From Mycoplana azooxidifex (GTDB taxonomy: Bacteria; Pseudomonadota; Alphaproteobacteria; Rhizobiales; Rhizobiaceae): a stretch of 64,000 nt of DNA. The translations under genes and the position numbers were made by a program. The stretch covers positions 1-64,000 of the forward strand of contig NZ_JACIEE010000008.1 in assembly GCF_014196765.1 (NCBI RefSeq). The letters run 5' to 3'. Shown here in pieces: positions 2,570 to 34,584 of this stretch. Numbering within the stretch: the stretch's first letter is position 1; each line of letters starts with the position of its first letter. A model generated the notes under the pieces. The model searched no databases and was not told the origin of the DNA. It saw nothing but the letters and a program-made list of their open reading frames with translations.

Positions 2570-2595
2570 TGCGGCCCGGCAACTACCCTTGTGAA
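2570..2595 (+). repeat. Left terminal inverted repeat of the Tn7-like element
   Basis: This 26-bp end begins TGCGGCCC and finishes with the core ACTACCCTTGTGAA. It matches the reverse complement of 34559-34584 at 21 of 26 positions, with all mismatches in the outer 12 bases. The TG tip and TGNGG start resemble the tips of known Tn7-family ends. Confidence 0.85.
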
Positions 2596-3000
2596 AATGG
2601 CAACTGAACTTGGGAGAGATGCGAATAATACATTGCTCTGGCGCTATGTCAATTTTTTATATTTTGCAGAAAGCGCGGTTCGAACTCCAAAAATTGCCCA
2701 TCATGGTCTCCTGAGTAGGGCTATCCAATTCGCCTTTGATTCGCGAGTTTTTGCGGCTCGTTGGGAGGGAGGAACAAAAAAACCGCCAGAAAGGCGGTTT
2801 TTTCACATCGGTTCAAAATAATTTTGGTACCGCGTTTTTTTGGTTTTTGGCGGGTTCTTGGCTATCATCCCGCTTGCTCTGCCCGATGAGACCTCGGCCG
2901 GCGTTAACTATTTTCCTGGGGTGGGCGTTTAAAAAGACGTGGTTACTACCTCAGCCATGAAGCACTGATTGGAATTTTTCTAAGTAAAATTGAAGTCGCT
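2596..3000. other. Left-end non-coding region of the transposon
   Basis: About 400 AT-rich bases with no convincing gene, in clear contrast to the GC-rich tail gene beside it. It holds the left end and an intrinsic terminator at 2776-2803. Tn7-type left ends normally hold several transposase-binding sites; a partial match (ACTACC, 2944-2949) is visible, but I could not make out a second convincing copy of the core. Confidence 0.5.
2776..2803. terminator. Bidirectional intrinsic terminator in the left end
   Basis: A perfect stem ACCGCC / GGCGGT with loop AGAAA is flanked by an A-tract on one side and a T-tract on the other, so it can end transcription in both directions. It would insulate the FtsH-like operon (leftward) from transcription entering from the tail gene (rightward), as expected near a transposon end. 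Confidence 0.8.
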
Positions 3001-4950
3001 CTAATTAAAGACGTCGTTGGAGAGATCAATGGCGAGTTTTTTAATTGAGCGGTGTGATCCGAATACGATCTGGCGGACCTCGTCGCCAGTTAACGACTGT
3101 TGCCTGACCAAGGCGTCGGAGACCTTTCGCAAGACCCCGATGCGCTCGCTGAGCATTTTCTCCACTCGCTTGTACTGCGCCTTCAATCGAGCCTCGACGT
3201 CTTGCGCCAACCTCGGTCTTACATCCCGAAGGCGCTCAAGTTCGCCCGTCCGTTCGGCCGCCTGTGAGGAAATCATAGACCCGAAGCCCCATTTGACTTC
3301 CATCATTGTCGCCAGTTCGGTAGCCCGGACGAGGTCAGATTCCATATGACCGCCGGACCCGTTCGTATGTTCTCCGAAAACGAGTCTCTCTGCAGCCATG
3401 CCTGCCAGCAGTACCGCGATCTTGTTGTCGAAGAAGGTTGAAGTCCGTCTTTCGAACAAACGCTCTTCGAACAGGGTTCCGCCAAGGCTTTGCGTTCTGA
3501 TCGCGCTCGACACCGTCTCGGAAATTGTTACTGACTGCAGTCGGTCCGCTTCCACCATGACACCCACAATCGCATGGCCGGCCTCGTGGACCGCGACCAT
3601 TTTCAAGACGTCGAGCGGGATCGGATTCCTCTCCGGCATCGCGGCCATTAGGTCCGCCATAGTCAAAGGACGCTTACCGCGGCGCGCCACTCGACGGGCC
3701 GACCTTACACACTTGGCAATGTCCGCGCCCGACCAACCCTCGGACCATTTGGCGGGTTCGCCCAGGTCGGCATCCAGGAGGTCGATACCGAGATGAAATC
3801 TAAAGATATCAGCGCGGGTCACAGCGTCTGGCATTTTGATTTCGAACTGCCTCTCGAGCCGGCCCGGTCTCAATAGTGCCGGATCGATCAGCTCTGGGAA
3901 GTTGGTTGCCCCGACAACCACCACGCCTTCCAATTCCTGCGCGCCATCCACGCACTCCAGCAGGGCGTTGATGACTTGTCGTTGATAAGAGGCGTTGTCG
4001 CCCGACGCCGAAGCCCTGTCGCCGATACTGTCAAACTCATCGATGAAGAGGATCGTCGGCGATTCCTTCCTAGCCTCGTTGAATGAGCGTCTCATTGCCT
4101 TCAACATGTCGCCGAGATGACCGTGACTCTGCCACTGAGCAGCCGAGGTCGCGACAAACGCCGCGCCACAGGACTGCGCGAGAGCTGAGGCGAATTGTGT
4201 CTTCCCTGAACCTGGTTGCCCAGAAATCAAGACCCCGCGATCAATCGCGCTCCAGTCAAGTTTCCCCGTCTTCCAGTCGGCGAGGTCTTGCGCCAAGTCC
4301 ATTCCCCATACCATCGCCTCGCCGTAGCCGGAGAGTTCTTCCAACCTCGGGCCAGCCGTTTCCGGTGTTGATGCGGACTGTTCGCCCGGAGTGTTCAGAC
4401 GACGAAGTCTTCCGATAACCGCGTTCGCCGATCGACCAATCCGGAATGCCAACGACACCCTGCCGAGGTCCTGGGTTGCAAGGAATGCCGCATCTTCTCT
4501 GCTGATCCTCCCGAACCCCATACGCCAAGCGGCAATCATGAAGTCCGCGCCTGTCGGAGGAGGAATGGCGACGACGACGTCAGATGCTGCGATAAGTTCG
4601 TCCGTCACCAGGTCCTTGTGCTTCAACAGGACGATGGCTCGTTCGCAGTACCGAAGCTTGCCAAGCTGGGAAGCCGCATCCTCAACGGTGTCGATACTGA
4701 TGACGTCGAAGCTGTTGGCGAAATCCAATTCATCCGCCGCCTTAGGTTTGTCCAAGACACGGAGGCCCGCGACACGAAAGGCTCCATGGTTGGCCTGGTC
4801 ATCGAGTACGAGACTGGCGACGAAACGACGTGACCGCTTTAGCATCGGCCTGATTGCGCGTGAAATGATTGCGAGGGCTACGTGCGACGAGAGAGTGAGT
4901 TCATCATCGATACGTGCCCGACGGCGAGCTGCATATGAAGAGCTTTGCAT
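3001..4950 (-). CDS. Soluble FtsH-like AAA+ zinc metalloprotease
   Basis: 649 residues. The C-terminal two thirds have the architecture of FtsH: Walker A GQPGSGKT at 244-251, Walker B ILFIDEF at 300-306, second region of homology GATNFPELIDPALLRPGR at 348-365, and M41 peptidase motif HEAGH at 455-459 with a probable third zinc ligand Asp539 in ESDLVRATELA. Unlike true FtsH it has no transmembrane segments; the first 210 residues form an unrecognised domain. It is therefore likely a cytosolic ATP-dependent unfoldase-protease. It lies 40 bp after the TnsA-like gene, so the two probably form an operon, and it sits between the transposon left end and the tns genes. It could act on the transposition complex, as ClpX acts on MuA, or be a defence factor. 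Both ideas are inference; the enzyme class is clear. Confidence 0.85.
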   Translation of the reverse strand: MQSSSYAARRRARIDDELTLSSHVALAIISRAIRPMLKRSRRFVASLVLDDQANHGAFRVAGLRVLDKPKAADELDFANSFDVISIDTVEDAASQLGKLRYCERAIVLLKHKDLVTDELIAASDVVVAIPPPTGADFMIAAWRMGFGRISREDAAFLATQDLGRVSLAFRIGRSANAVIGRLRRLNTPGEQSASTPETAGPRLEELSGYGEAMVWGMDLAQDLADWKTGKLDWSAIDRGVLISGQPGSGKTQFASALAQSCGAAFVATSAAQWQSHGHLGDMLKAMRRSFNEARKESPTILFIDEFDSIGDRASASGDNASYQRQVINALLECVDGAQELEGVVVVGATNFPELIDPALLRPGRLERQFEIKMPDAVTRADIFRFHLGIDLLDADLGEPAKWSEGWSGADIAKCVRSARRVARRGKRPLTMADLMAAMPERNPIPLDVLKMVAVHEAGHAIVGVMVEADRLQSVTISETVSSAIRTQSLGGTLFEERLFERRTSTFFDNKIAVLLAGMAAERLVFGEHTNGSGGHMESDLVRATELATMMEVKWGFGSMISSQAAERTGELERLRDVRPRLAQDVEARLKAQYKRVEKMLSERIGVLRKVSDALVRQQSLTGDEVRQIVFGSHRSIKKLAIDLSNDVFN

Positions 4951-4990
4951 TGTTGGACCTCGAGCAGAATTCAGGAACGGCGTGCAGCTG

Positions 4991-5629
4991 TCACCCAGCT
5001 ATTCGCCGCACCGCCGTCCGAGGTCCGATAAGCTCGTCATCCAATTCCACTTGCACGAACTCCCGGAGGATCATCGAGGCAAGTCCCGCCATGGGTTTGA
5101 CCTCTTGGAAAGCGCCGAGGCATTCGGCGACCGTGAGGGTGGTGTGCTCGTCAAGGGCCGCCAATAACCGAACACGATCGTTAAGGCCGACTTCGTAGTT
5201 GCCGTAGCGCAGGAGATCACGGGCGTTCTTCAGTCGAAAGCCCGAATAGACTTCGTTCGCCAAATAGCCCCGATATCCGCATCCCATTTTCTCGGCCGCT
5301 CGGGTAGCCACGAAGGCATCGCGGCGACGCGCACGGTCCGGCGCATCCACCACTTTTGGGTTGCCGAAGCGGTCTCTGATGATGAAGTCGAAAGGAGGTT
5401 CGTCGAGGTCCTCATCATCGACCGGCGTCGCGGAAGTCCAAGAAACAATGTCCGGATCAACGTCAAACAGGCAGGCGAGGTCTCGGGTAACTTGCGATCT
5501 GAAAGAGATGTTACCCTCCGCCTTCACAGTGGCCCGGGGATAGAAATCAGTGATGGCCCGAGCTAGCTGGGGAGCTACGATTCCATTCACGCGATATAAG
5601 GTTCCCATCGGATTACTCGCATTTGACAT
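4991..5629 (-). CDS. TnsA-like protein with degenerate catalytic site
   Basis: 212 residues from the ATG at 5629 (an upstream TTG at 5668 would add 13). The pattern follows TnsA endonuclease-like proteins: FRSQVTRDLACLFDVDPDIV matches the family SxxERDxxxLLxxDPDV stretch, FDFIIRDRFGNPKVVDA matches PDFxVxxxDGxxxxVEVK, and then a helical C-terminal half ending VELDDELIGPRTAVRRI follows. The catalytic Glu of SxxERD is Thr and the EVK motif is VDA, so two of three expected active-site positions are lost and a nuclease role is unlikely. It precedes the FtsH-like gene in an apparent operon. It may act as an adaptor that recognises TnsB or TnsC. The family call is by eye and could be wrong; it is then an unknown protein. 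Confidence 0.55.
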   Translation of the reverse strand: MSNASNPMGTLYRVNGIVAPQLARAITDFYPRATVKAEGNISFRSQVTRDLACLFDVDPDIVSWTSATPVDDEDLDEPPFDFIIRDRFGNPKVVDAPDRARRRDAFVATRAAEKMGCGYRGYLANEVYSGFRLKNARDLLRYGNYEVGLNDRVRLLAALDEHTTLTVAECLGAFQEVKPMAGLASMILREFVQVELDDELIGPRTAVRRIAG

Positions 5630-6532
5630 TGACGACGATCTGCGGCCCACCTTGGGCGGTAAGATCAACTTATTCGCCGAGCGATGTCTGTCTGGGTCCT
5701 GAGCATGGGGGCATTCGTACCGGGCTCGGGGAACTCACGTCAACGCGGGCGATCCATTTTCACACGCGGATACCTTTGGGAGCCGAGGCACCAGGAATTC
5801 CGGACTTCGCGAGGAAGACCCGGCTAGGACGCTCAAGACGCGCGTACGACCTTTTCGGGGCGACGTGTTAACCTTTTGGTCCGGCAGGCGGCCGCCAATC
5901 GTCAGGTTGCATCAAATCGTAAGGCCACTTTTACGCGCAGAGGCAGCCTTTGGGATATACGCTTTGTTAACCAGCTCCGGCTTCACTCGGCTTATCCGCT
6001 ACTCTAGGCGGGTGCCGAAAAGGGGCGGCGAGACACCCGAAACAGGAGTAAATGATTGCGGCACCCGAAAATGAGAAAGGGGCCATCTTCAGAATGGCCC
6101 CTTTCTAGTCGGTGTGGCTGACCTCTCTGCAAATCGGTCGAGACACAAACAAAGACAGTTGGACGGTAATCCAGAACGGTTAGCGCCGCGTTAACGCGTG
6201 CAATCTGCGCGGCGTTGGCTGCTGACAATTTATCCGGGAGCCCGGTTGACTGCAGGTTGCGTTCTTCTTATGTTCCACCTCCATCGGAGCGAAGAACCTA
6301 TACCGCCCGACCCGGAGAGACCACGATGACGAGAGTTTGGACAGCCCAGCACCGAATATGATCAGCGTTCGTTGATCCTAGTGGTGGCCGTGCGATCATC
6401 GTCGATCCCGACCTTCATATACTTGCAGTAATTCAGCGTACCCCGCCGAGTGCGGGTGCTTAGCCGCATGCCGGATTTCCGATTTCACTCATCCGCGACG
6501 GCCCTGCGCCCGCGGAACAGGAGACGTATGTC
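5630..6532. other. Gene-poor stretch between the FtsH module and the transposase remnants
   Basis: About 900 bases with no open frame that I can support on either strand. It must hold the promoter for the leftward TnsA-like/FtsH-like pair near 5640-5750. A strong hairpin terminator lies at 6076-6104. The short frame starting ATGACGAGAGTTTGG at 6325 has a good Shine-Dalgarno sequence but stops after 11 codons, which fits decayed coding DNA upstream of the transposase remnants. Confidence 0.5.
6076..6104. terminator. Intrinsic terminator
   Basis: An 11-bp perfect stem AAAGGGGCCAT / ATGGCCCCTTT with a 7-base loop. The T-rich end is present on the plus strand and A-residues lie on the other side, so it could work in both directions. 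It isolates the tns side from the FtsH-like module. Confidence 0.7.
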
Positions 6533-6727
6533 ATGTTCGTACCCAAGGACGCCTTCAAACCTGCCGAAGAACTGTCCACCGACCTTTGGGCCAACTACGG
6601 CATCCCGGAGGTTCTTCTAGTTGATAATTCGGGCGGTCTCATCCGCGCGATGTTCGCAAACGGCGATGTCCGGCTCGAGACTGACCTTTGTCGCCGAGAG
6701 GAAGCGGAGGAGGACGTGTCCTGGTGA
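6533..6727 (+). pseudogene. DDE transposase remnant (second Asp region)
   Basis: A 64-residue frame with ribosome site AGGAGA. The middle reads LWANYGIPEVLLVDNSGGL, which matches the part of retroviral-integrase-type transposases that carries the second catalytic Asp (DNG/DNS). Everything before and after that region is missing. It is most easily read as a decayed transposase from an earlier transposition module. It could be a translated small protein, but nothing supports a function. Confidence 0.5.
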
Positions 6728-6868
6728 ATAATTCCTCCGCCTGCGGTCGCGGACAGTCGTTGGCCCATCTCGCTCGGCCGCCGCCTTAGTCCGTCAGGCC
6801 CCAATTGCAACCATTTCAGTCCAACCAGCAGCGACGCACAGCGTCAGCGGCATAGGAGAGTCATTGTC

Positions 6869-7066
6869 ATGAAAGCGGAAACAACTGGTCTTCCCACGAC
6901 TCGGCAACTCGACATCGACAGCACGTCAGTTCTTGGGTGGCAGGTCACCGTCGCGATCGATCACGCTACGCGGTGCATTGTCGCCTGCCATGTGGGGAGG
7001 CCCAGCGAGAAGGACAGCATCGAGCGTTTCTTCGCGAGTCTCGAATGTACGAGGAGCGGTCGATGA
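6869..7066 (+). pseudogene. DDE transposase remnant with internal deletion
   Basis: A 65-residue frame with ribosome site GGAGA. QLDIDSTSV and WQVTVAIDHATRCIVACHV match the start of an integrase-core domain, including the first catalytic Asp. The frame then passes straight to EKDSIERFFASLE, which matches the region of the final catalytic Glu. The segment with the second Asp is gone, so this is an in-frame deletion derivative. It overlaps the start of tnsA by 4 bases and may help to translate it. The piece at 6533 carries the missing region but in the wrong order, so the two are probably separate scars. Confidence 0.55.
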
Positions 7067-7809
7067 GGACAGGCTTCGAACCCGACCACGTTCCCGTACA
7101 CACAGTCCCTGCCGTGGTGCACAACGGGGCGATGCCCGTGAACGTACCGAGCTCCAAATGCCGGGGCACGTCGATCCGGGTCCGCCAGCCTCTTTCCGAG
7201 GATGCTGTCATTTTCTGGGAGACCGATCCTCGCGTCGAGGCGATCTCGCACTACCCCGTCGAAATCAAATGGTCTCGTACACGGCGAGACGGCTCGATCA
7301 AGGAAATGAAGCATAACATCGAGTTCGCCATCCGGTGGAAGGGTGGCAGACGCACCTACATCGATGTCGAAAAGGTCTCCCATCACGACGAAACATGGTT
7401 CCAGCTTCGGACGCAGGCCATGAAGTACCGGGTCCCGCGTCAACTCGACGCCATGTACACGGTGATCAGCGAGAAAGTGCTGCACGGCCGACCACTGCTC
7501 TACAATCGTCGGCACATTTACAGTCACCTCCATGTTCGCGACGAGCGTGCCAAGGCGCGCATTCGATGGCTGGTGACGGAGCTGACCCCTCCCATGACCA
7601 TCGCCGCTCTGTCTGAAGCCGCAGTCCTCAGGCGGGTCGGATACCGGATGCTCGACCCTGGAGGTCGACCATTCACCGAGCCGCTTCGCGACGTTGATCG
7701 GGCCTACACCGCCATCATGCAACTCGCCGCCGCCGGAGAACTCCGGATCGATCAATGCCGCGAGATCACCGACCAATCCCTCGTTACCTGGAAGCAAAGG
7801 AGCATCTGA
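7063..7809 (+). CDS. tnsA: TnsA-like transposition endonuclease
   Basis: 248 residues. TnsA makes the 5'-strand cuts that, with TnsB, free a Tn7-type element for cut-and-paste movement. The start ATG at 7063 has GAGGAG six bases upstream; an ATG at 7045 is the alternative. Motifs agree with the TnsA N-terminal nuclease: a Ser-x-Glu start (LSEDAVIFWETDPRVE), a yPVxIKW strand, IEFAIRWKGG in place of PDF, and YIDVEK in place of the EVK motif. The C-terminal half is helical, as in TnsA. The catalytic site is not canonical, so activity should not be assumed. It is first in the operon, and its stop overlaps the tnsB start (TGATG). Confidence 0.75.
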   Translation: MRTGFEPDHVPVHTVPAVVHNGAMPVNVPSSKCRGTSIRVRQPLSEDAVIFWETDPRVEAISHYPVEIKWSRTRRDGSIKEMKHNIEFAIRWKGGRRTYIDVEKVSHHDETWFQLRTQAMKYRVPRQLDAMYTVISEKVLHGRPLLYNRRHIYSHLHVRDERAKARIRWLVTELTPPMTIAALSEAAVLRRVGYRMLDPGGRPFTEPLRDVDRAYTAIMQLAAAGELRIDQCREITDQSLVTWKQRSI

Positions 7810-10193
7810 TGTCCAGATTCGAACCCGCCGCCTCGTTTGTGAATTTCGAAGTTCTCCGCCCTGCCATGACGGCAAAGGAGTTGAAGATTCCCACCGACGA
7901 CGGCCAGCACGCCGACGTACAGCCAATCGATCTCCAAAAGAACGAAGTCATCAGCATCCTCGGCGAGAAGAAGATCAACGCCGCCGCCTTCCAAGTCCGG
8001 TCGATCGACTACGATGAAATCCTCGGGCGAGTGTTCACGATTCAACATGTGAAGACCGACAACCAGACCCGGGTAACGGACTGGCAACTCGCGGTGCTGG
8101 AAAAAGCGGGACGTCTGGTCGTCAACGGGGAACAGAAACCAGGGCGGCGTCCGCCCCCCGACATGGGGCTAACTCCGGAGCAGACCGCTTCCGCGAACAG
8201 GATGCTGGATTACCTCAACGCCGTCCAGGAAGCCTCGGATAACGGCAACATCCGAATGACGGAAGCCAAGATCAGGGCGGCATTGGAGGACCATGCTCGC
8301 AAGACCGGCGATAAGCCGATCTGCGTGACCACATACAAAAAGTACCGCGACATCTACGAGGCCGCGCCGTTCGACCTGCTTTCTTCACTGGTGCCTCCGA
8401 CCTCCAGCGGGAACACGACCAAGGCATACGGCGAGGCATTCGAGCGTCTTGTGACGAAGTGCGTCATGGCGACATGGAGCCAACCCAAGGGAAGTTATCG
8501 CACGCTCAAGCGGCTTGTGCGGAAGGAGCTCAAGAAACCGAGGTACGCGGAACTGCGCAAGCACGTCCTCACCCCCGCTGGTGAGCTGAAACCTCATAAC
8601 AGTTGGTTTTCCCGAAGATTGGCGGCACCAGATGACTTCACCAAGGATGAATTGCGCCACGATGTCAAAGTAGCCCGCCGCAAAAACCCGATGACGACGC
8701 GACGTCCGCTGCCAGACGCCATTCTGGACGAGGTCGAGGCCGATTACACGACACTGAACATCTTCGTCATCGATGACAAGCGGCCACTGCTTTACGGCCG
8801 CCCCAAGATCATCCTGTTCAGGGATCGCAAATCGGGGGCCATCCTCGGTTTCTCGATCTTCTTCGGAAACCCGTCTTACGAGGCTTTCATTCACGGCCTG
8901 AGGCACGCGATCTACCCGAAGAACATGTCGAGGTACCCGGGCTTGTCGTGGCCGATGTACGGAAAGCCTCAAAGGCTGCTGATCGATAACGATCCCCATT
9001 TGCGCGCCGCCGACGTCAAGCACGCTTGCGATGTTCTCGGCATCAGGCTCGTACAGACGCGCCCAGGCGAGCCCAACACCAAGGGCGGCGTCGAGCGGAT
9101 GATGTTGACCCTCGAGGACCTGGTCAACAACATCCGCGGTTCGGTCCAGCACAACCCGACGAGGCGCAAGGACTTCGAAGACAAGGAGGCAGGAAAGCCT
9201 ATCCTGACGCTTTCCGAACTGGAGCACTTCATCACCGTCTTCATCTGCGCCGACTATCACGTAAACCCGCACATCGGCCTTGGCGCTACCAGGTTGATGC
9301 CTGGAATCCCCCAGGCCATCTGGAACGAGGACATCCGCAATGTGAAGGCGCGCAGGCCGATCAATCCTCAGACGTTCGTCCGACTTACGGGCAACCGCCG
9401 TGGCGACATCACGATCCAGGATGGCAAGGTTCGCTGGGACTGCATCACCTATTACAGCGAAGCGCTGCTCGTTCCCAGCTTCGACCATAGGCACAGGTCC
9501 GCCGTTCCAGGCGTCGATACCACCAAGTTTGTCGGCTACCGTGATCCCTCCGATCTCGGCCGCATGTGGCTCGTCGACCATTTCCATAGGACCGTGATCG
9601 AGGTTCCTGTCTGTGACGGAGACAGGGCGTACGCCAACGGCCTGCGTCTCTATCAGCACAACAAGGCCAAGAAGCACTTCAAGCGGAAGATGAAGCGCGC
9701 GGCCGAGAATACCGTCGAACTGATGGACGCTTTGAACGAACACATGGACGTGCTCGACAAAATGCACATGGAGCGCAAGAAGGCGGGCACCGCCCACGCG
9801 CTTGCTTCCTACCACCATGATCTCGTCGGCAGACGTGTCCACGGTGAGGTTGTGGAAATGCCCTACAGCGAAGACCTCGGCGACATGGAAATCGATTGGG
9901 ACGACCCGTTCGAGGTCGAGCCGCTGGAAAGCGGGTCCGAAGCCGACGCGCCATCGGTGCCGCCTAAAACCCCTCGAGCCGAGGTCTCCTACTCCGACGG
10001 CAAGGCCCACACCAGCGACCCCGTGTCCCGCAAGGCGAAGGAAAAGACAACCACAAGCTCCAGCAAGACGGTCGCTGTCTCCAAGCCCGAGAAGAAACGC
10101 GGGGCCGCGAAATCCATCCATGCATCCCTCGACCTCGAACAGGGCGACCTCAAGGAAATGGTTCGCCGCCTCGAAAACAGCAGGAAGGGCTGA
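7809..10193 (+). CDS. tnsB: TnsB-like DDE transposase
   Basis: 794 residues from the ATG that overlaps the tnsA stop, with AAGGAGC upstream. It is the transposase that binds the transposon ends and joins the 3' ends to target DNA. The integrase core has Asp312 (VEADYT), Asp393 (LLIDND) and Glu429 (KGGVERMM); the D-35-E spacing is classical. Before it come about 300 residues of DNA-binding helical domains, after it the Mu-type beta-barrel region, and a charged, Ser/Lys-rich tail from about residue 700 that may contact TnsC. It is followed two bases later by tnsC. The predicted targets are the inverted repeats at 2570 and 34584 and the internal repeat at 34451. Confidence 0.92.
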   Translation: MSRFEPAASFVNFEVLRPAMTAKELKIPTDDGQHADVQPIDLQKNEVISILGEKKINAAAFQVRSIDYDEILGRVFTIQHVKTDNQTRVTDWQLAVLEKAGRLVVNGEQKPGRRPPPDMGLTPEQTASANRMLDYLNAVQEASDNGNIRMTEAKIRAALEDHARKTGDKPICVTTYKKYRDIYEAAPFDLLSSLVPPTSSGNTTKAYGEAFERLVTKCVMATWSQPKGSYRTLKRLVRKELKKPRYAELRKHVLTPAGELKPHNSWFSRRLAAPDDFTKDELRHDVKVARRKNPMTTRRPLPDAILDEVEADYTTLNIFVIDDKRPLLYGRPKIILFRDRKSGAILGFSIFFGNPSYEAFIHGLRHAIYPKNMSRYPGLSWPMYGKPQRLLIDNDPHLRAADVKHACDVLGIRLVQTRPGEPNTKGGVERMMLTLEDLVNNIRGSVQHNPTRRKDFEDKEAGKPILTLSELEHFITVFICADYHVNPHIGLGATRLMPGIPQAIWNEDIRNVKARRPINPQTFVRLTGNRRGDITIQDGKVRWDCITYYSEALLVPSFDHRHRSAVPGVDTTKFVGYRDPSDLGRMWLVDHFHRTVIEVPVCDGDRAYANGLRLYQHNKAKKHFKRKMKRAAENTVELMDALNEHMDVLDKMHMERKKAGTAHALASYHHDLVGRRVHGEVVEMPYSEDLGDMEIDWDDPFEVEPLESGSEADAPSVPPKTPRAEVSYSDGKAHTSDPVSRKAKEKTTTSSSKTVAVSKPEKKRGAAKSIHASLDLEQGDLKEMVRRLENSRKG

Positions 10194-10195
10194 AA

Positions 10196-11128
10196 ATGAT
10201 CCACTTTCCCCAGTTTCACACCACCCCGTTCGACGAGATCACGAGGAAAGAGGTCTTCAAACTTGACGATGGCGAACGCCTCCGTTTCGTTCGAGACCTA
10301 CTCTATCCCTACAACCGCTTTCTTGACGTCCAGGACGCCGTCTCGGAGTGGCACAAACCCGTTGGCGACGCTGGTCCGGCCGAGATCGGTGATTTGGGCC
10401 TGCTCCTCGGAGAGTCGGGGAATGGCAAGTCCTTCATGCTGAAGTCTTTCTATCAGAAGGCAATCACCCCACCAAAGGGCGACCGCATGCGGTTCCCTGT
10501 CATCTACATCGAGGTGCTGCCAGGGTGGAAGGCCGGCGGATTTGCACGCGCGCTGCTCGCAGCCACGGGCAAGTCCAATGGAACCAAAAGGCAGAACGTC
10601 GACCAATTGGCCGCCTCGGCGGTGGAGCGGCTACTGGAGTATGAGACCGTCTTCATCATCATCGATGACGCTCATTTCCTGTTTCACCAGAAGCGATACT
10701 ACGACGAAAACTACAGCTTGTTGAAACAGATCGCGGACGCGCAGTTTGCCAACGTCCTGCTCGCTGGCCTTCCTCACCTGGAGGAGGTCGTCAAGGCAGA
10801 GTATCAGTTGGCGAGACGGACGGGCTTCCTCGAGCCCCTTCCTAAGTTCGATGCCGCAACGGAAGCCCGCCACTACCAGGCGTTTCTCGTGGGTGTCGAT
10901 CAACGTCTGCCCTTCGCGAAGGAATCGGGCCTTGGCAATCCAGCGACAGTCGAGCGCCTTTTCCTTGGAAGCGGAGGCTCGGTGGGCCTGACAATGAGCG
11001 TCATCAAGCGGGCGGCCAGAACAGCCATCACGGCCAAAGCCGCATGCATCATGGATCATCACATCGCGGCCGCCGTCAAACACGTTCTCCTGTTCGACCA
11101 GGAAGCATTCCATGGGGAGGATGACTGA
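10196..11128 (+). CDS. tnsC: TnsC/TniB-like AAA+ ATPase
   Basis: 310 residues. This is the ATP-dependent regulator that links target selection (TniQ) to the transposase. Walker A is GESGNGKS at 72-79 and Walker B is VFIIIDDAH at 152-160, with a sensor-like LLAGLPHLEE further on. It lacks long N- or C-terminal extensions, so it is closer in size to TniB and the short TnsC proteins than to E. coli TnsC. It starts two bases after the tnsB stop and ends two bases before tniQ, so all four genes are almost certainly one transcript. Confidence 0.9.
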   Translation: MIHFPQFHTTPFDEITRKEVFKLDDGERLRFVRDLLYPYNRFLDVQDAVSEWHKPVGDAGPAEIGDLGLLLGESGNGKSFMLKSFYQKAITPPKGDRMRFPVIYIEVLPGWKAGGFARALLAATGKSNGTKRQNVDQLAASAVERLLEYETVFIIIDDAHFLFHQKRYYDENYSLLKQIADAQFANVLLAGLPHLEEVVKAEYQLARRTGFLEPLPKFDAATEARHYQAFLVGVDQRLPFAKESGLGNPATVERLFLGSGGSVGLTMSVIKRAARTAITAKAACIMDHHIAAAVKHVLLFDQEAFHGEDD

Positions 11129-11130
11129 CG

Positions 11131-17312: not shown

Positions 17313-17480
17313 GAAGTCCCACAGGTGATTCACCCGCAGTCGGGCAAGTGATCATTGTGCCCGAAAGAAATGGCGGATGCCAACCGGAGTTCATCCTATG
17401 TTCCGCATGTCCACAAATAGGTTGCGCTGGATGGCCGGTGCATCGCTGGGGTGAGCCAATTCGTTGAAAGGGAGCGAGCT

Positions 17481-21015: not shown

Positions 21016-21130
21016 GAGGACTCCAAATATCGTTGGGCAATTCTTGATTGTGTGTATTCGGAAAAACAAGCCGGTCCTGCTCGTTACACGGAAATATTCA
21101 CAAGACCGGAGGAACCCAGTGCAGGTCGGC

Positions 21131-21730
21131 TTAGTGAAAATCGACAAAAGTTATGCTGTCGAGGATTTTGTCAAATTCAATGAGACCGTAGTCTCTGTAG
21201 GGTTCGTCCCAGCACCCGGTAACAGAGATTGTGTCGGCCAGATTCCAGACAAGCGCTGTTTTGCAACTGACTGTCGGCCAACCCTCGTACGCAGTGAAAG
21301 ATTTGGTGGCCTGCGCCGAATAACCCACGAGGTTTACGCCATGAGCCGTCGTCTTGCGGAAGGACTTGAGGTCTCCGGACATCTCATATCCGATTTGATT
21401 GAACCATCTCCCGATTTCAGGCCTTAGCTTGCTCATCAATTCGGCGATCACCGATTCTGGCATTGAAGCGACATCTGAATTCTCTATTGGAGTCGCGGAG
21501 AGCTGTGACATCGAAAATCTGGCTCCGGTTCCTATGTCGCCAGTCGAAGCAAACCATAGCATCTTACCGCCGCCGAGCTTTCGAAGTAGTTCCGGCGGAT
21601 TTTCTCTACGCAGGTTCGCATCATACGTGGCGACCATTCCCGGAATGGCGTACACGGGGTTACGGGCGTAGACGCTCGTCGCTCCGCAAAGAGTCGCGAG
21701 ACAGGCTATGATTTTCCAACCGATTTTCAT
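21131..21730 (-). CDS. Exported protein of unknown function
   Basis: 199 residues from the ATG at 21730, preceded by an excellent AGGAGGAA. The N-terminus is a signal peptide ([15 protein letters not shown], cleavage after about residue 23), so the product is likely periplasmic. The mature part has two cysteines near the end ([17 protein letters not shown]) that could form a disulphide. I recognise no family. It lies 115 bp upstream of the vWA gene on the same strand and could be read into the triad operon. The start region overlaps nothing, and the divergent membrane-nuclease gene starts 180 bp away. Confidence 0.6.
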
Positions 21731-24732: not shown

Positions 24733-24933
24733 ATGGCATTTAGAGATCATAACCAGTCTGCATTTTGCGAAATCGTCGGGTTTTCCAGCAACATCTCGCC
24801 AAAAGTACCAGCAGTCGCGATTGGCCGTTCAAATGTTGCGTGCGACCTCGTGCAATGCACGGAACGCGGTTCGAAGACAGCGCGGACGACGTCTAAGCGA
24901 CACCTGAAAGTCGAGCGAGGTCCCGAAGCATGA
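24733..24933 (+). CDS. Small protein coupled to the phosphoesterase
   Basis: 66 residues with ribosome site GAGGTGAGGA. Its stop overlaps the start of the phosphoesterase gene (ATGA), which implies translational coupling and supports it being a real gene. The product has a hydrophobic middle (ISPKVPAVAIG) and a basic C-terminus (KRHLKVERG). I do not recognise it. It may be a leader peptide, or a partner of the enzyme. Confidence 0.45.
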   Translation: MAFRDHNQSAFCEIVGFSSNISPKVPAVAIGRSNVACDLVQCTERGSKTARTTSKRHLKVERGPEA

Positions 24934-25694
24934 AGCTCTGGATCATGTCCGATTTGCATATGGAATTCGGCCAACCTTTCGTTGGGCAGCCTCCCGACGC
25001 CGATGTTCTGGTCTGCGCGGGCGATCTTTTGACACGAGGCATCGTCCCCAGCATCGAATGGTTGGCAACCAACATCCCTTCCTCGATGCCTGTCGTGTTC
25101 ACGGCAGGCAACCATGAATACTATGGAGCCTCCGTGCAGGAGAGCATCCGTGAAGCGCGCTTGATGCGTGACCGCTATCCCAACATCCACTGGCTCGAAA
25201 ACGAGGCGGTGGATGTCAACGACATCAGGTTTGTAGGGGCGACACTGTGGACCGACTTCCGCCTCAACGGCGGCGAGCCCGAGTTGGCGATGGCGGCGGC
25301 CCAGAGCGGGATGAACGATTACAAAAAGGTCAAGTTTTCCAAGCTTCCCTACCAGAAGTTCAAGCCGATCCATGCTTATCGAAAACACCACGAATCCAGG
25401 GCGTTCCTCAAATCCGCGCTGGCGGAGTCCTCGGCTGAGAAGACGGTGGTCGTCACACATCACGCGCCGTCGCCCAGATCGATTCCACCGGCGTTCCAAG
25501 GTGATCCGTTGTCTGCCTGCTACGCCAGCGATCTCGAGGAGCTTATCGTTGAAGGGCAGCCTTCATTGTGGGTGCATGGTCACGTTCACAAGAGGGTCGA
25601 TTACCGTGTCGGGGGGACGAGGGTCCTGGCCAATCCGCGCGGGTATCCGGGAGAGGGGAAGGCTTTCGATCCACAGCTCGTCATTGAAGTCTAG
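24930..25694 (+). CDS. Calcineurin-like metallophosphoesterase
   Basis: 254 residues with the full set of metal-binding motifs: SDLHMEF at 7-13, AGDLL near 30, AGNHEYY near 62, VVVTHHAPS near 172 and VHGHVHKR near 213. The length and motif spacing fit small cytosolic phosphoesterases acting on nucleotides, cyclic nucleotides or nucleic-acid ends; the substrate cannot be told from sequence. Genes of this family occur in several mobile defence islands. The gene has no other partner than the coupled small upstream gene, with 214 bp of non-coding DNA after it. Confidence 0.85.
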   Translation: MKLWIMSDLHMEFGQPFVGQPPDADVLVCAGDLLTRGIVPSIEWLATNIPSSMPVVFTAGNHEYYGASVQESIREARLMRDRYPNIHWLENEAVDVNDIRFVGATLWTDFRLNGGEPELAMAAAQSGMNDYKKVKFSKLPYQKFKPIHAYRKHHESRAFLKSALAESSAEKTVVVTHHAPSPRSIPPAFQGDPLSACYASDLEELIVEGQPSLWVHGHVHKRVDYRVGGTRVLANPRGYPGEGKAFDPQLVIEV

Positions 25695-28808: not shown

Positions 28809-28861
28809 ACAAGCTCTGTCTCGCCACCTAACAGCACAGGTGGAATGGAAGTTCTTAAACG

Positions 28862-30415
28862 CTACATCGCAGCGTTCAAGGAAATCGCGCGCCATGTTCG
28901 ATCGCCCCTTGATGGATGCTTGCCAAATACGGCTAGCGCGGTCACGTCCTCAGTTGCGCTGTCGATGGAACCGACCAAGAAAGGTGCGACAAAGACATCG
29001 TCTATAAAAGCAAATCCCTTGGTATTACGACGGAGCTGGCCATGTACAAGCTTTACGTTCTTCGTAGGCAAGTCGTTCCGCTCCACGTTGAACGCATCCA
29101 GTCGATCGTTCTTGGGGTTTCTGGCCACTCTAAACCGGACGCAATCGCCTATGCGCAGGGATTTGTCTTCGGAAACGCCCACAGCCGCTTCCTCTCCTGT
29201 TCCGTCGATGAAGACCTTCATTGACGTGTCGTCGGTTGCTTCGCGCACGACCACACCGATGTGTTCCTCAAGGCAATCCCAATATGCGCTATCCAGCCGC
29301 GTTGCAACGTGGATGACGGTCCGCCGATCATCGCCGTGCTGGCGACCGATCACGAGCGTCAACGGCGACCCGGCCTCAAATTTCATTTTACTTGTCTTGG
29401 GGCCGACCAAGCTCCAGGCGAGGCCTTTTGCGTCCTTGATTGCGAACCGCATTAAGAGCTTCTGCTTCCGATCGGGGCGAGTTCCAGCGGGCGAATGCGG
29501 AACAAGGACGCCGAGACAAGTCGCGGTCTTCGTTTCGACGACGTCGAAGCAGAGCGCAAGAGCGGCTGACGAATGCCGAGCGTAGAAGGCTTTTGGCTCC
29601 TCGGCTCCTCCTGCAGACGGGTCGTACCAGGGTTTGGCAAGTAACTCCTCGAGCCTGCGACCAAGCGGCCAGCCCTCCGCTTCGCGGATGGCAATGGTAA
29701 TATTGATCTCTAGGCTGGCTTGCGCGTGTTCGTCCTGCCCTGCCAGCAATTCGGCAAGCTCTTCATGAGCTCGCACGAGAAACTTGGGTTCGGCGGGGCA
29801 TTCGAGTGCACGGCAGAAACACGCCAGCGCCAATTCCGGTTGTTCCGATTGATATAGCCGGCCTGCTTCCGCCCAGACCCAGAACTCATTGCGCTTGGAC
29901 TTGATGACGCCAGACAAAAGCTCGGCGGCACGTTGGAAGTCGCCACTGCGTCGCAACAATGCGGCCACGTCCCAATTTAGCCAGAGCGCGTCATCGCCCG
30001 CGGCCGTTTCCTTGACACGCTCTGCCCATTGAAGCGCCATGCCTATCTGGCTGTTACTGGCGTCGGAATGTGCCTTGACCCATTTGCATAGTGCGCGGGC
30101 AATCTTCATTGCCAAGGATGGGTAGGTCTTGCCTTCAAATTCATTGGGCTTCCAATCCTCCGATCTCAAGCCTTCGGGTCCGACCCAACCGATGATGTCG
30201 GGGAATTTAGGCAGGTGCGGTCCGACTTTTGTCAGCTGGCCGAGGATGGCGGAGCAAGCCATATCCGGAACGCGTGGCTTGAGCCGATAAAACTTTCTCA
30301 TCCAGTCCATGATCTCATCCACATGACGCGGATTGACAGGCTGATTTCTGTCTAGCGCTGCGGCAAAATCGGTGATGAGGGTTTTGATTTGTTTGAAGAT
30401 GTCCCACTCGTTCAC
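28862..30415 (-). CDS. TPR protein with C-terminal OB-like region, partner of the NERD helicase
   Basis: 517 residues. The first 270 residues are helical and repeat-like (AAELLSGVIKSK, AGRLYQSEQPELALACFCRAL), consistent with TPRs. The C-terminal 240 residues are beta-rich, ending in VHGQLRRNTKGFAFID, which resembles a cold-shock/S1 type OB fold that would bind single-stranded nucleic acid. The start overlaps the stop of the upstream NERD-helicase gene (ATGA), so the two proteins are made together and probably form a complex. I do not know a named function for this pair. Confidence 0.6.
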   Translation of the reverse strand: MNEWDIFKQIKTLITDFAAALDRNQPVNPRHVDEIMDWMRKFYRLKPRVPDMACSAILGQLTKVGPHLPKFPDIIGWVGPEGLRSEDWKPNEFEGKTYPSLAMKIARALCKWVKAHSDASNSQIGMALQWAERVKETAAGDDALWLNWDVAALLRRSGDFQRAAELLSGVIKSKRNEFWVWAEAGRLYQSEQPELALACFCRALECPAEPKFLVRAHEELAELLAGQDEHAQASLEINITIAIREAEGWPLGRRLEELLAKPWYDPSAGGAEEPKAFYARHSSAALALCFDVVETKTATCLGVLVPHSPAGTRPDRKQKLLMRFAIKDAKGLAWSLVGPKTSKMKFEAGSPLTLVIGRQHGDDRRTVIHVATRLDSAYWDCLEEHIGVVVREATDDTSMKVFIDGTGEEAAVGVSEDKSLRIGDCVRFRVARNPKNDRLDAFNVERNDLPTKNVKLVHGQLRRNTKGFAFIDDVFVAPFLVGSIDSATEDVTALAVFGKHPSRGDRTWRAISLNAAM

Positions 30416-33084
30416 AAGAATATCCTCTTGACCTCTTCGAGCAGTTCCAAATCACTTACTTGGCGTGGGCGCAGGCCGGAAACCAACCCCTGCTTATCGA
30501 AATTTACCTCTATGACGACACGCTCATCATGGTGCCGCACAAGGGTGATCGTCAGTCGGTATGGTGTCTCTTCATGGGATACGAGCCGCCAGCCCTTTCT
30601 GCCAGATCGCGATCGGATTGATCGAAGTAAGTCATCTGCTTCCGGGGAGTGGGAGTTGGTCTGCAAACACCCAGCCGCCGCCTCCGTCAGTAGCGGCCAG
30701 AACGCCGGATCGCTGAGATGCATGGCCGTGACGATGTTTTTGCCGTTATAGGGAACACGCATTTTGCACTGCGCCCCGTTTGGACCAATCAAGCTATACT
30801 GCTCTTGGTAGGGATAGCATTCTGCCTTGCCTACCCGCCAACCCAAGCTCTCCAGAACCTGGGCTATCCGGAGCCAGATCGCAGCCGATCTGAGAACATC
30901 CTTCGATTGATCAAGCCCAGGCGGCAGATCGCGTTGCAAGTCTCTCTCGGAGGCAACGCCATTGGCTTCGAACGACCAGCCCGCGCCTACCGCGATGTCC
31001 TTGGCAACCGTGACGGTACTCGCATTCCAGGTTGCGGAATCGAACGGATGAATTTCAGTGAAGTTGACAAGGACCAGTTCGCGTTCGCCGACCGTCAACG
31101 CAGAGTAAAGCCAGCGAAAGTATGCTTCCGTATGATTTCCCGCGGCAAGGTCGCAGTTAACGTAGCAAATCGGCTGCGACATTCCTTGCGCGTGGTGAAC
31201 TGTGGAGGCGTAGCCGAACCGCGCGTATACGAAATCCGGTGGTGGAGGGGTTATCGCCAAGCTTCCATCATACCCGTCGTCAGAAGCACTTCTGCGATTC
31301 CGCTCAATATTGCCTCGCCAAACGCTTTCGGCAACTGCGATTTCCTTTTCCAATTCCGGCTTGTCTGCGTTCAAAAACTCTTCGAACAAGTTGATCTTGA
31401 TCTCGTTCAGGTTTCCAACATCGCAGGCAATCGAATGAAACGTGACGGGATTATTCTTCGCCCAGTTCAGCCCCTGAGAGTATCTGGTCTTTTCGCCGAC
31501 CCGTACCACTCTCTGCCTTCCACCCAGTTGCCTGTAAATGCCGGGATCAAGAGGGTCGCGAACATCATGTCCTACATAGATTTCCAATAAATCCCCGGGC
31601 TCGACACTGGCCAGGAGCGTCTTGTCGTGAAGGCGTTCGCGCATCCACTGAGTGAACCCATTGGCCTTGACGTGTGTCTCCGCTAGATACCATGTGGATA
31701 GCGGATCGGAACGGAAGTGTTCGAGCATCTCCACAGCCGCGGACTGTTTCTCCGACTGTCTGAAGCCATCGTCCGTTTTCAATTCCAGTTCGGTAAACCG
31801 TTTCGAACGAATGGCATTCACTAGGCGCTCTGCATTTGCCAGCTTTGCAGAACCACCCGTTACATCTATCACCTGATCAAGCTCCAGGGACTGATGACTT
31901 ATATCCCGCTTCCTCTGATACTCTCCGAGTAATGCGGACTCGTCATCCGCCGAGCGTTGAATCTGATAATGATCGCCGAAGAAAATCACCTTACGCTGAC
32001 TTTTCCCGAGTTCAGCAAAATCAAAATAGTCGGCGAGCAGATGGCCGCTGCCGTACTGCTTTCCATCTGGCGTGGTGAAGCGCGAATTGCCGAGTAGGTG
32101 CGCATCATCTAGGAAATAGACACAATCCTGCGGGTCGTCGCATTGTCGCAACGGGATGACCTTCGCTTTTTTCGCTTCTGAGTTTGGGTCTTGGCCTTCA
32201 TCCTCATCAGCATTGCCAGAATAGAGGTGCGCGTAGATGCTCGAAGCTTCCACCTCTGCGCGCTCGGCAAGGCGGCGATTCGGACCCAGAACAATCGCTT
32301 TTCGCCCGGCTAGAGTAACGTCTTCGACAGCCAAAGCTAAAAGCCTGCTCTTGCCTGTGGAGGTCATGCCCCGCACGGAGAAACTCACTAGGTCGCCAGA
32401 TGAAACGAAGCTGCGTAGGGCCTCGAGTGCTTCCTGTTGATGGAGAGTTGCCGATGCCTGACGCCTGGGCTCTACGGTGCCGGTTTCGATAGTTCGGATC
32501 GCGGGCTTGGTGGACTTCCACTCGATTGGCTGGACGCCCAGACGTTGGACTATTTCCTGTGCTTCCCTCCGCTCAATCCTCAACTCGGGCGACCCGAGAT
32601 TTTCCAAAAGGGTCGCACAGGTAGCCATGTCCGTCGGAAACAACCACGAGCGAACCTTGGATGGGAGTTCGAGTTCGTCAACTATGCGACCGGAAAACAC
32701 GACGCTCCCGGAGATATGGCCAAGGGTGCGGCCCTGAAGCAATGATCTGGAGTTCAGCCAGTTCAATACGGAAAACTTGTTGTCGCGAAGTTGTTGAAAT
32801 GGATTGGTCTTGCTTCCGCCCTTCACCAGGATTCCGTCAGCTTGCCATGGGCCGTTCTCGGTTCCAGTCAGTCTGCCGCCATGGCTTTTGAAGTCAACAA
32901 CCAAGATCGCGGAGGGCAGGATACAAACCGCGTCAATTTCCGTACCATTCCAAAGGGCGTTGGCAATGACGAAAATCCAATCGTTGCTGGTAGCCCAACG
33001 ATCTTCCAGTCCCTCCAGGAACTGTTGCAGCATCTGGTTTTCGTGCGTTCGGGTAGCTCTCTCTCCGTATGCAACTATGCTCAC
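30412..33084 (-). CDS. NERD nuclease-superfamily 1 helicase fusion
   Basis: 890 residues. The N-terminus is a NERD domain: EIDAVCILP with Asp51 and VVDFKSHGG with Asp64 and Lys66 form the D-DxK nuclease site. From residue 210 there is a superfamily 1 helicase or DUF2075-like ATPase: Q-like HQQEALEALR, Walker A GMTSTGKS at 239-246, Walker B YFLDDAHLL, FGDHYQIQRS, and the C-terminal motif TVHHAQGMSQ. The last 150 residues are unassigned. Fusion of nuclease and helicase suits processing of foreign DNA or RNA. It is first in a two-gene operon with the TPR/OB protein; promoter sequence should lie in the 258-bp gap 33085-33342. Confidence 0.8.
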   Translation of the reverse strand: MSIVAYGERATRTHENQMLQQFLEGLEDRWATSNDWIFVIANALWNGTEIDAVCILPSAILVVDFKSHGGRLTGTENGPWQADGILVKGGSKTNPFQQLRDNKFSVLNWLNSRSLLQGRTLGHISGSVVFSGRIVDELELPSKVRSWLFPTDMATCATLLENLGSPELRIERREAQEIVQRLGVQPIEWKSTKPAIRTIETGTVEPRRQASATLHQQEALEALRSFVSSGDLVSFSVRGMTSTGKSRLLALAVEDVTLAGRKAIVLGPNRRLAERAEVEASSIYAHLYSGNADEDEGQDPNSEAKKAKVIPLRQCDDPQDCVYFLDDAHLLGNSRFTTPDGKQYGSGHLLADYFDFAELGKSQRKVIFFGDHYQIQRSADDESALLGEYQRKRDISHQSLELDQVIDVTGGSAKLANAERLVNAIRSKRFTELELKTDDGFRQSEKQSAAVEMLEHFRSDPLSTWYLAETHVKANGFTQWMRERLHDKTLLASVEPGDLLEIYVGHDVRDPLDPGIYRQLGGRQRVVRVGEKTRYSQGLNWAKNNPVTFHSIACDVGNLNEIKINLFEEFLNADKPELEKEIAVAESVWRGNIERNRRSASDDGYDGSLAITPPPPDFVYARFGYASTVHHAQGMSQPICYVNCDLAAGNHTEAYFRWLYSALTVGERELVLVNFTEIHPFDSATWNASTVTVAKDIAVGAGWSFEANGVASERDLQRDLPPGLDQSKDVLRSAAIWLRIAQVLESLGWRVGKAECYPYQEQYSLIGPNGAQCKMRVPYNGKNIVTAMHLSDPAFWPLLTEAAAGCLQTNSHSPEADDLLRSIRSRSGRKGWRLVSHEETPYRLTITLVRHHDERVVIEVNFDKQGLVSGLRPRQVSDLELLEEVKRIFL

Positions 33085-33138
33085 ATGTATTCCTCAAACG
33101 CATCTGTACAGTATCTTAGCCTCCACCAAGACTAAGAT

Positions 33139-33342: not shown

Positions 33343-34389
33343 TCATGGCGGTTTCCCGAAGAATGAAAAATCTAATGGAACGACTACGCTTTTTGGGTCC
33401 AGCTCATGGGTTGTCAAAAAGTCGAGGAACGCGCCGTCGAACCCATCTCGCTCAGTTCCAGGGAAGTTAAGCCTCCAGTATCCTGATTTGTGAAATTCAT
33501 GTTCCTCTGGCGCGTCGTACGAGATGAACCCTCGGTCCGCGAGAAACCTTAGTTCGCCGACCGTGTCGCCGTATCTTGAACGTCGGGTTATCTGATCCGC
33601 ATTTACATGAAATCCCCAAGCGCCCGCTCCAGGGCGCTCCTCACTCCAACTCAGCATCCATGCTAAAAACTCGCGAGAGATTCTTGGAAGGTCTGCAATC
33701 GCTTCCGCAAAACCATTTAAATCCCGCGCCGCATCGTCGGCGTCGCCGCCATATATCTCTTCACCGATTCCCGAGGTCGCGAAGACACTTCCGTCTGTTA
33801 TTATGACGCTGCTTTTCGGCTCTACAAAGTCCTCGAGGCTAGTAGGAAACTTTCCGTCGTCGCCTTTGACCTCCAGCTCTACGCGGATTCTGACGGTCTC
33901 GGCCATGATCAGCCGGTGTAAATCTTGAAGCTTCAAAATTGGCATCATGACCGCGTCACGAATTAGGTCGGTCATGTCCCAGATATTAGATTCACTGAAG
34001 CCCGTCCTGGCGACGTCTGGGGTATCAAGTGTGTAGCTCCCCTGTTTATTGCCAATCGCTAGAACAAGAATACGATCATAGACTCGCAGATGGTCGGCCG
34101 TCACTTTTTCTAAGGTCTTTTTAACTTTTGGACTCGACGCCGAAGATGTGATCTGGACCGCAACTTTTGCATCAGCGTCTCCAAGATCGAGGCCAGGTTC
34201 GTTGGAGCGTTTCGTGTTAAGATTTACTAGGTTCCAACCGTGAACCAAGTTGAGGACGTCTCTAAAAAAGTTTTCCAGTAGGCTGTTCAGGGCAACGTCA
34301 CCGATTTTGCCCCTCATGTCGACCTGATGCGCTATCGCCGCAAGTTCATCGACGATCTGCCCAATAAAATAACCTCGACTGCTGCTCAT
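33343..34389 (-). CDS. SMEK-domain protein
   Basis: 348 residues from the ATG at 34389; the open frame runs back to 34563 but that part is transposon end. The N-terminus (SRGYFIGQIVDELAA, LENFFRDVLNLVHGWNLVNLN, then PGLDLGDADAKVAVQITSS) matches the SMEK domain found in many suspected defence proteins and related to restriction-like folds (D-x-D and QxTS positions). The C-terminal 170 residues read like a helical winged-helix region (GELRFLADRGFISYD). It is the last cargo gene, leftward, and its promoter must lie inside the right end of the transposon between transposase-binding repeats. Function unproven. Confidence 0.6.
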   Translation of the reverse strand: MSSSRGYFIGQIVDELAAIAHQVDMRGKIGDVALNSLLENFFRDVLNLVHGWNLVNLNTKRSNEPGLDLGDADAKVAVQITSSASSPKVKKTLEKVTADHLRVYDRILVLAIGNKQGSYTLDTPDVARTGFSESNIWDMTDLIRDAVMMPILKLQDLHRLIMAETVRIRVELEVKGDDGKFPTSLEDFVEPKSSVIITDGSVFATSGIGEEIYGGDADDAARDLNGFAEAIADLPRISREFLAWMLSWSEERPGAGAWGFHVNADQITRRSRYGDTVGELRFLADRGFISYDAPEEHEFHKSGYWRLNFPGTERDGFDGAFLDFLTTHELDPKSVVVPLDFSFFGKPP

Positions 34390-34450
34390 ACTGCTGTTGC
34401 CTCGCCGACGATTTAGAAACGCGTCGAACTGAAAGTGTAAAAGTAGATTC

Positions 34451-34470
34451 CTCACAAGGGAATGCCCGAA
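34451..34470 (+). repeat. Internal transposase-binding-site-like repeat, right end
   Basis: CTCACAAGGGAATGCCCGAA matches 34559-34578 in the right terminal repeat at 15 of 20 positions in the same orientation. A weaker copy (CTCAACGCAGGAATGC) starts at 34481, 30 bp on, and another partial one (GCACAAAATAGGGACA) lies near 34495. Closely spaced direct repeats inside the right end are typical of Tn7-family TnsB sites. Confidence 0.6.
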
Positions 34471-34558
34471 AACTGCTTTCCTCAACGCAGGAATGCACAA
34501 AATAGGGACAATGAATGGCTGAAATGCCGCTACTAAGTTGTTGATTCTCGGTAAATTA

Positions 34559-34584
34559 TTCACAAGGGTAGTCGCGAAGCCACA
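34559..34584 (-). repeat. Right terminal inverted repeat of the Tn7-like element
   Basis: Read on the minus strand this end starts TGTGGCTTCGCG and finishes with ACTACCCTTGTGAA. It is the partner of 2570-2595 with 21 of 26 identities, and ends in CA on the plus strand next to the CTGGC duplication. Confidence 0.85.

Follow-up and report, generated by a model that had tools for sequence, protein, structure and literature searches.

We analyzed a stretch of 64,000 bp from the genome of Mycoplana azooxidifex (Alphaproteobacteria; Rhizobiales), namely positions 1 to 64,000 of contig NZ_JACIEE010000008.1 (here referred to as the window). A Tn7-like transposon occupies positions 2570-34584, an assignment of which we have practically no doubt. 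The element carries the transposition genes tnsA, tnsB, tnsC/tniB and tniQ as well as further cargo genes. Between its left end and tnsA lies a two-gene module (3001-5629), consisting of the genes for an FtsH-like AAA+ metalloprotease and for an apparently nuclease-dead protein, here named TnsA2, which profile and predicted fold show to be a paralogue of TnsA.

The left terminal repeat (2570-2595, plus strand) reads TGCGGCCCGGCAACTACCCTTGTGAA and the reverse complement of the right one (34559-34584, minus strand) reads TGTGGCTTCGCGACTACCCTTGTGAA. They are identical at 21 of 26 positions, share a perfect inner core of 14 bases and end in TG/CA tips. The target duplication CTGGC was found at 2565-2569 and 34585-34589, by sequence and by comparison with the empty site. 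The window was scanned for end pairs having TG/CA tips, a 5-base duplication without mismatch and an identity of 17/26 or higher, the left end lying within 1-15000 and the right end within 20000-63990. The pair 2570/34584 was the only one found, and 20 decoupled controls yielded none. The left boundary was additionally fixed by the empty site of a congener. An earlier note on this DNA, made from the sequence alone, had described the same ends and duplication and had claimed limits exact to the base; these were confirmed, since the empty site of the congener matched the prediction exactly. Its proposal to look for further elements bearing the 14-base core at both ends was followed within the window, where no copies besides the two terminal ones were recovered at up to 3 mismatches.

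The G+C content drops at the right limit from 64-70% outside to 53-60% inside the element, while a shift at the left limit cannot be judged because a gene of low G+C content abuts there. The window contains three perfect matches to the 9-mer CCCTTGTGA, two of them terminal. The third (34452-34460, minus strand) is a possible second TnsB site within the right end; none turned up in addition in the left end.

All four transposition genes are located on the plus strand: tnsA at about 7063-7806, tnsB at 7755-10193 with its start probably near 7803, tnsC/tniB at 10196-11128 and tniQ at 11131-13278. The operon, as the earlier note had named it, holds by Pfam, invariant residues, profile and fold. 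The AAA regulator TnsC was recognised by Pfam TniB (6.1e-12) and the target selector TniQ (715 aa) by Pfam TniQ at 27.4 bits (cut-off 27), its HTH_17 match being under the cut-off (24 bits, cut-off 27). Neither TnsA nor TnsB reached a Pfam cut-off, and TnsA did not reach one in NCBIfam either. The DDE transposase TnsB was identified by alignment and keeps D314, D395 and E431, which are invariant across 11 aligned TnsB. Its closest kin share 28-32% identity, and a genome scan with three of these kin gave three loci. For TnsA, a profile of 15 TnsA matched the PDB TnsA 1f1z at 1.7e-6, and three of three PDB matches of its AlphaFold model (predicted local distance difference test, pLDDT, 83.4) at E<=0.001 were TnsA.

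The TnsA of the window has lost all three of E63, D114 and K132, which we take to be the catalytic residues of Tn7 TnsA and whose positions were verified in the 1f1z alignment. These positions are now S, E and E. Among 30 TnsA the triad was intact in 17 and not intact in 13, with four proteins, including those of the window and of R. tumorigenes, keeping none of the residues. The closest relatives of the element are found in S. meliloti USDA1021 (psymB), R. leguminosarum USDA 2370 and R. tumorigenes (pRt932). Together with the window they form one supported TnsB clade in which TnsA is degenerate throughout. Catalytic mutants of TnsA lose cut-and-paste transposition and keep replicative transposition, according to the text available of PMC8649781, so that cointegrates are predicted for this branch. 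Pfam searches of the element's 19 larger frames yielded neither a resolvase nor a Cas family; smaller frames and CRISPR arrays lay outside them. Upstream of tnsA (6503-7040) there are short frames which by eye resemble pieces of a DDE transposase; one of them had no Pfam match.

The gene order tnsA-B-C-tniQ, the DDE transposase TnsB, the TniB/TnsC ATPase, TniQ, the TG/CA tips, the 5-base duplication and the defence cargo are shared with Tn7 and Tn7-like elements. The element differs from these by the loss of the TnsA triad, the additional FtsH-like/TnsA2 module and a site inside a gene of a gene-transfer agent (GTA).

The FtsH-like protease and TnsA2

The reading given by the earlier note is supported but incomplete, since it overlooked the module between the left end and tnsA as well as the degeneracy of TnsA and the damage to the host gene on both sides of the element.

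The protease gene (3001-4950, minus strand) adjoins the left end. Its product shares with bacterial FtsH an AAA domain (Pfam AAA, 7e-32) and an M41 peptidase domain with the HEXXH motif (Peptidase_M41, 4e-21), and both the Walker motifs and HEAGH are present. It differs from FtsH by a low family score, 203.6 bits against the NCBIfam FtsH equivalog with its cut-off of 600, and by weak N-terminal hydrophobicity. The N-terminal hydropathy was 1.16, without a strong hydrophobic segment, compared to 2.33, 2.68 and 1.78 for three frames taken as canonical (L130, L132 and L133, with an exact HEAGH only in L130). A fourth control, L131 (1.08), was discarded, being without HEAGH and apparently in the wrong frame. 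The protein is described here as soluble. Values of at least 1.6 were reached by 6 of 46 FtsH-like proteins. Of 45 FtsH-like loci, 44 had an HExxH, 39 a Walker B and 36 a Walker A pattern.

A profile built from seven FtsH-like proteins separated this group from canonical FtsH across 397 genomes of the order. Canonical FtsH matched the profile at positions ~220-645 with ~250-278 bits, whereas the non-canonical FtsH-like proteins scored 285-892 bits, most of their matches reaching into the N-terminal part.

TnsA2 (4994-5629, minus strand, 212 residues) is encoded directly upstream of the protease gene. Profile-profile comparison with TnsA gave a probability of 99.4% (E 4.7e-22, 180 columns), and the NCBIfam TnsA-like model NF033179 matched residues 37-207 at 1.9e-4, under its cut-off. 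A model of 33 tnsB-adjacent TnsA scored all 14 of the TnsA2 partners tested, with 17-63 bits. The AlphaFold model of TnsA2 (pLDDT 83.8, predicted template modelling score 0.78, 12 sequences) had four PDB matches at E<=0.001, and all four were TnsA, including the TnsA/TnsC complex (1t0f). These fold matches are moderate, with a TM-score of 0.45-0.50 by query and a root-mean-square deviation of 6.6-10.2. The nuclease positions of TnsA2 are not all conserved: the main group keeps the aspartate of the PDF motif and not the lysine, as judged by eye.

Linkage and phylogeny of the module

The distribution of the module was surveyed in the 397 genomes, with at most 2 (TnsB) or 3 (FtsH-like) candidates scored per genome. 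At least 73 FtsH-like genes of 285 bits or more and at least 54 TnsB matches of 100 bits or more were found. Of these 73 FtsH-like genes, 23 were located within 20 kb of such a TnsB match, compared to 0.5 expected for random placement in 4.5-Mb genomes. The linkage was closest for the TnsB most similar to that of the window. Among the 15 listed with at least 340 bits, 13 had an FtsH-like gene within 10 kb; the fourteenth (L148) had TnsA2 and a protease broken in two pieces, and for the fifteenth the contig ended ~3 kb beyond tnsB. For TnsB of 180-340 bits, 8/33 were linked to an FtsH-like gene within 20 kb.

TnsA2 was present within 4 kb in 15/25 FtsH-like loci with TnsB in the stretch compared, versus 4/20 without (45 loci in total, L052 having been dropped as a duplicate of L095). 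For three of the latter four, the same contig or plasmid carried tnsB at a distance of 21-33 kb.

With 29 rows carrying the protease and 26 lacking it, a TnsB tree of 55 rows required 7 label changes, compared to a mean of 18.6 after shuffling, and none of 500 shuffles was as low. The tree combined 35 rows with 20 fetched TnsB loci, 17 from the order and 3 from a sample of the class; L075, L076, L077, L135 and the G305 element were left out before counting. TnsB loci outside the tree are the second G050 copy, G163, G067, matches below 100 bits and most matches of the class sample. As to the labels, L148 carries the broken protease gene, several negatives have contig ends near the tns genes, and L143, counted as negative, holds an FtsH-like piece of 148 residues at a contig end.

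Distances between TnsB and the FtsH-like protein were correlated in 26 elements with r=0.59 (p=2e-4) and, when these were thinned to 25, with r=0.34 (p=2e-4), compared to 0.89 and, thinned, 0.80 for TnsB and TnsC. The module was thus inherited with the transposition core beyond chance, although less tightly than tnsC.

Taken together, the module is probably tied to the transposition core. Its linkage and its clustering on the TnsB tree would make it more like transposition machinery than like ordinary cargo.

Possible functions of the module

Tn7 TnsA contacts TnsC and TnsB, and an adaptor for this machinery would be expected to resemble a nuclease-dead TnsA encoded next to an AAA+ protease. 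As the best explanation as a whole, which we prefer tentatively and would place just below the probable, the module may be a ClpX-like machine that clears the transpososome, with TnsA2 as its adaptor. TnsA2 would dock through its TnsA fold on the complex of TnsA, TnsB and TnsC and would present TnsB or TnsC to the protease ring. As ClpX does for MuA, the ring would then unfold or degrade the presented protein after end joining, and the gapped or forked DNA thus freed would become available to repair or replication. Owing to the loss of its TnsA triad the element should move replicatively, and this is where such clearing may be needed most.

The likeness to ClpX, as it acts on Mu and on CRISPR-associated transposons (CASTs), lies in an AAA+ unfoldase working after strand transfer, which is the role proposed here. 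ClpX differs in being a host protein, presumably without an M41 domain, while the ATPase of the window is fused to a protease and borne by the element. ClpX is reported to remodel the transpososome of Mu ahead of replication and to be required in the repair pathway as well (PMC3325207), and it boosts Tn7-like CASTs (PMC12326709, PMC10761935). It is also reported that ClpX, for which a role in removing Tn7-type complexes once integration is complete has been hypothesised, raised type I-F CAST integration ~fourfold in human cells but was toxic there, and that deletion of clpX lowered phage propagation ~200-fold in an E. coli selection (PMC12326709).

A role of the module in disassembly is accordingly put forward with reserve, as possible and not yet likely. 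If true, an element-borne protease with a TnsA-like adaptor would be a dedicated and testable answer to the question of how transposition complexes are cleared, and possibly a helper for gene-insertion tools. It is more doubtful whether this goes as far as a Tn7-like lineage with its own AAA+ dismantling machine, aimed by a nuclease-dead TnsA and independent of host ClpX, of which the present branch, with its true TnsA dead, would be replicative and Mu-like. Searches of an open-access collection, with subscription papers outside the scope, gave no description of FtsH together with Tn7-like elements, tnsB or TniQ.

Several observations weigh against such a role. As many as 50 of the 73 FtsH-like genes had no TnsB match within 20 kb, those of 285-450 bits were never linked to TnsB (0/29), and 16 fetched loci labelled as unlinked gave neither a TnsB nor a TniQ match. 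DUF6634-like neighbours, an assignment for which one gene was checked in Pfam, were found in 11/20 FtsH-like loci without TnsB versus 6/25 with it. The idea that the module arose once, which a TnsB tree of 35 rows with only 8 negatives had suggested by 1 change, was given up when 55 rows required 7. On this tree L151 and L153, both without the protease, group with the window in a starred TnsB set of 6 rows, and L142 and L139 lack it in other branches. The tree of the FtsH-like proteins mixes linked and unlinked members (11 changes, shuffled mean 13.3, 54/500 as low). In the class sample of 357 genomes, FtsH-like genes (E<=1e-90) occurred in 12 and TnsB (E<=1e-40) in 16. Both occurred together only in the genome of the window, and five outside TnsB matches above 340 bits, L151 and L153 among them, had no protease. 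Regarding TnsA2, its profile reached PDB TnsA by sequence alone at 0.0085 at best. The 14 partners were first chosen with an iterated TnsA model into which they had themselves been drawn by drift, and TnsA2 was for this reason retested by position-defined models, NCBIfam and fold. An iterated TnsC model drifted too and took in probably unrelated ATPases (e.g. in L098). Finally, a degenerate TnsA in only 13/30 means that a replicative need cannot explain all carriers.

Much of this would also fit an anti-phage or other cargo cassette that is frequent in the Tn7-like elements of this order and gained its TnsA-like partner locally. We consider this somewhat unlikely. It would account for the many genomes with FtsH-like genes apart from tns genes, often beside DUF6634-like or metallophosphoesterase genes, for the defence-type genes filling the rest of the element and for the match of the AAA part to the defence ATPase IetA (1.6e-25). 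A mere cassette would not lead one to expect that the module adjoins tnsA in many relatives, that presence of the protease is clustered on the TnsB tree, or that its partner has a TnsA fold, with the FtsH-like gene sharing a contig or plasmid with the tns operon in 18 of 19 cases. Less likely still, the protease and TnsA2 could form a regulator which, by degrading TnsB or TnsC, keeps transposition low or enforces self-immunity instead of clearing finished complexes. Linkage and fold evidence speak for this regulation as much as for disassembly, and the module is divergent from the tns operon in the window and co-directional upstream of tnsA in many relatives; proteolytic control, on the other hand, would usually not need a structural mimic of TnsA. 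An ordinary Tn7-like transposon with defence cargo, the linkage reflecting no more than shared islands in one order, appears quite improbable. Defence cargo is well described for Tn7-like elements in the text available of PMC8649781 and no linkage was seen outside the order in the class sample, but the 23 linked genes out of 73 and the position of a TnsA paralogue immediately before the protease gene speak against this reading.

FtsH-like genes outside Tn7-like elements were seen in L098, L101, L102, L110, L113, L114 and other loci, often with a DUF6634-like or metallophosphoesterase neighbour. The FtsH-like gene with such neighbours is possibly a separate system of two or three genes. A different arrangement was found in L109 (G259:C111, 5185-8788), where an FtsH-like, a TnsC-like and a TniQ-like gene are packed on one strand of a 9.4-kb contig that gave no TnsB match.

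Insertion site, related elements and cargo

The interrupted host gene encodes GTA_TIM of gene-transfer agents (PF13547, 6.2e-74). The Tn7-like transposon entered this gene and thereby made the 5-base duplication. One portion of the gene lies left of the element (2052-2569, plus strand, 93% DNA identity to a congener) and the other right of it (34590-36642, plus strand); DNA from 34858-35800 matched only GTA-like phage records. A homologous site free of the element is present in 6/6 other genomes of the genus, and the joined empty site of 80 bases aligned in all six. The predicted junction 17-mer GGGACTGGCTCTATCGC was exact in the closest congener (92% protein identity), in which GTA_TIM is a single open frame of 1282 codons. 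The other five have substitutions in it and aligned without interruption over 73-79 bases at 83-89% identity. Related genomes read through the junction as the earlier note had predicted.

Its further claim, that rejoining the flanks restores a colinear host protein, holds for the junction and not for the whole gene. Homology to GTA_TIM begins at ~2052, without the first 424 codons, and the preceding 424 residues had no match in the own genome, in a search without a positive control. The frame changes again downstream near 35.7-35.8 kb (35731-35809), either by decay of the gene or by an assembly error. Because of the missing codons and this frame break, rejoining gives no whole protein. Left of the transposon, an AAA_13 gene of lower G+C content (93-2030, minus strand, PADLOC PDC-S06 at 1.4e-240) abuts the truncated GTA gene at ~2035-2050. 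This junction is a separate insertion or deletion event, and its far side is out of view as the contig begins at base 1 of the window. The same gene is split by an inversion of its own in congener G435 (L045, 8882-11215), and in congener G438 (L046) a contig end falls within it.

A safe attachment site such as a tRNA gene or glmS is not used by the element of the window. The idea that GTA_TIM is a recurrent target of a GTA-targeting TniQ was rejected as unsupported by the loci of relatives: no GTA_TIM homologue was found in the fetched tns loci, stretches which often stop short of the element ends. Judged from this one case, the insertion looks like an off-target or second-pathway event. The copies of S. 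meliloti and R. leguminosarum are located just 3' of tRNA-Arg(CCG) (L032, 14322-14398, and L075, 6577-6653), which is an attachment site of this transposon branch, and the left ends of both carry three CAACAGCGTRCAC-type sites each. Insertion of Tn7-like elements beside tRNA genes is known (PMC11406308 and PMC8649781).

The elements of the window, R. tumorigenes and S. meliloti have the module in common, and the 22-kb stretch of R. leguminosarum showed none. The S. meliloti USDA1021 element of ~34 kb, which is absent from SM11 and has an imperfect duplication, carries the module inside its cargo ~10 kb beyond tniQ. The likely element of R. tumorigenes spans 15517-59243 of a joined stretch, with the duplication AGGAT and ends identical at 20/26. 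Its tns genes are at one end and the metallophosphoesterase, TnsA2 and protease genes towards the other, the protease ~1.9 kb from that end. Here, as in the window, the module is near a transposon end.

The cargo of the element is defence-like, which is ordinary for Tn7-like elements (PMC8649781), and includes the following genes among others. Following tniQ, and on the minus strand, are genes for a TPR protein with a PIN-TPR-GreABC domain (13275-17333, Pfam PF20698, 4.2e-21) and, assigned by Pfam, for a protein kinase, a PP2C phosphatase and a VWA protein (17649-21147). A calcineurin-like metallophosphoesterase is encoded on the plus strand (24930-25694, Pfam Metallophos, 1.1e-15), and this gene recurs beside FtsH-like genes elsewhere. 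Towards the right end, again on the minus strand, we found a two-gene TOTE-domain system (28862-33084), the PADLOC candidate PDC-M16A/B (E=0 and 7.2e-219) also recognised by Pfam, and a SMEK-domain protein (33343-34563, Pfam SMEK_N, 1.2e-39).

A second Tn7-like element is present in the own genome on contig C12 (54700-73500; L086 and L087). It likewise has TnsA2, an FtsH-like protease, tnsABC and tniQ, and the end-pair scan did not reveal its termini. Furthermore, several dispersed repeats of ~110-145 bases, apparently non-coding (L044, 3182-3300, 7590-7697 and 7740-7883), have at least 80 matches in the own genome on both strands.

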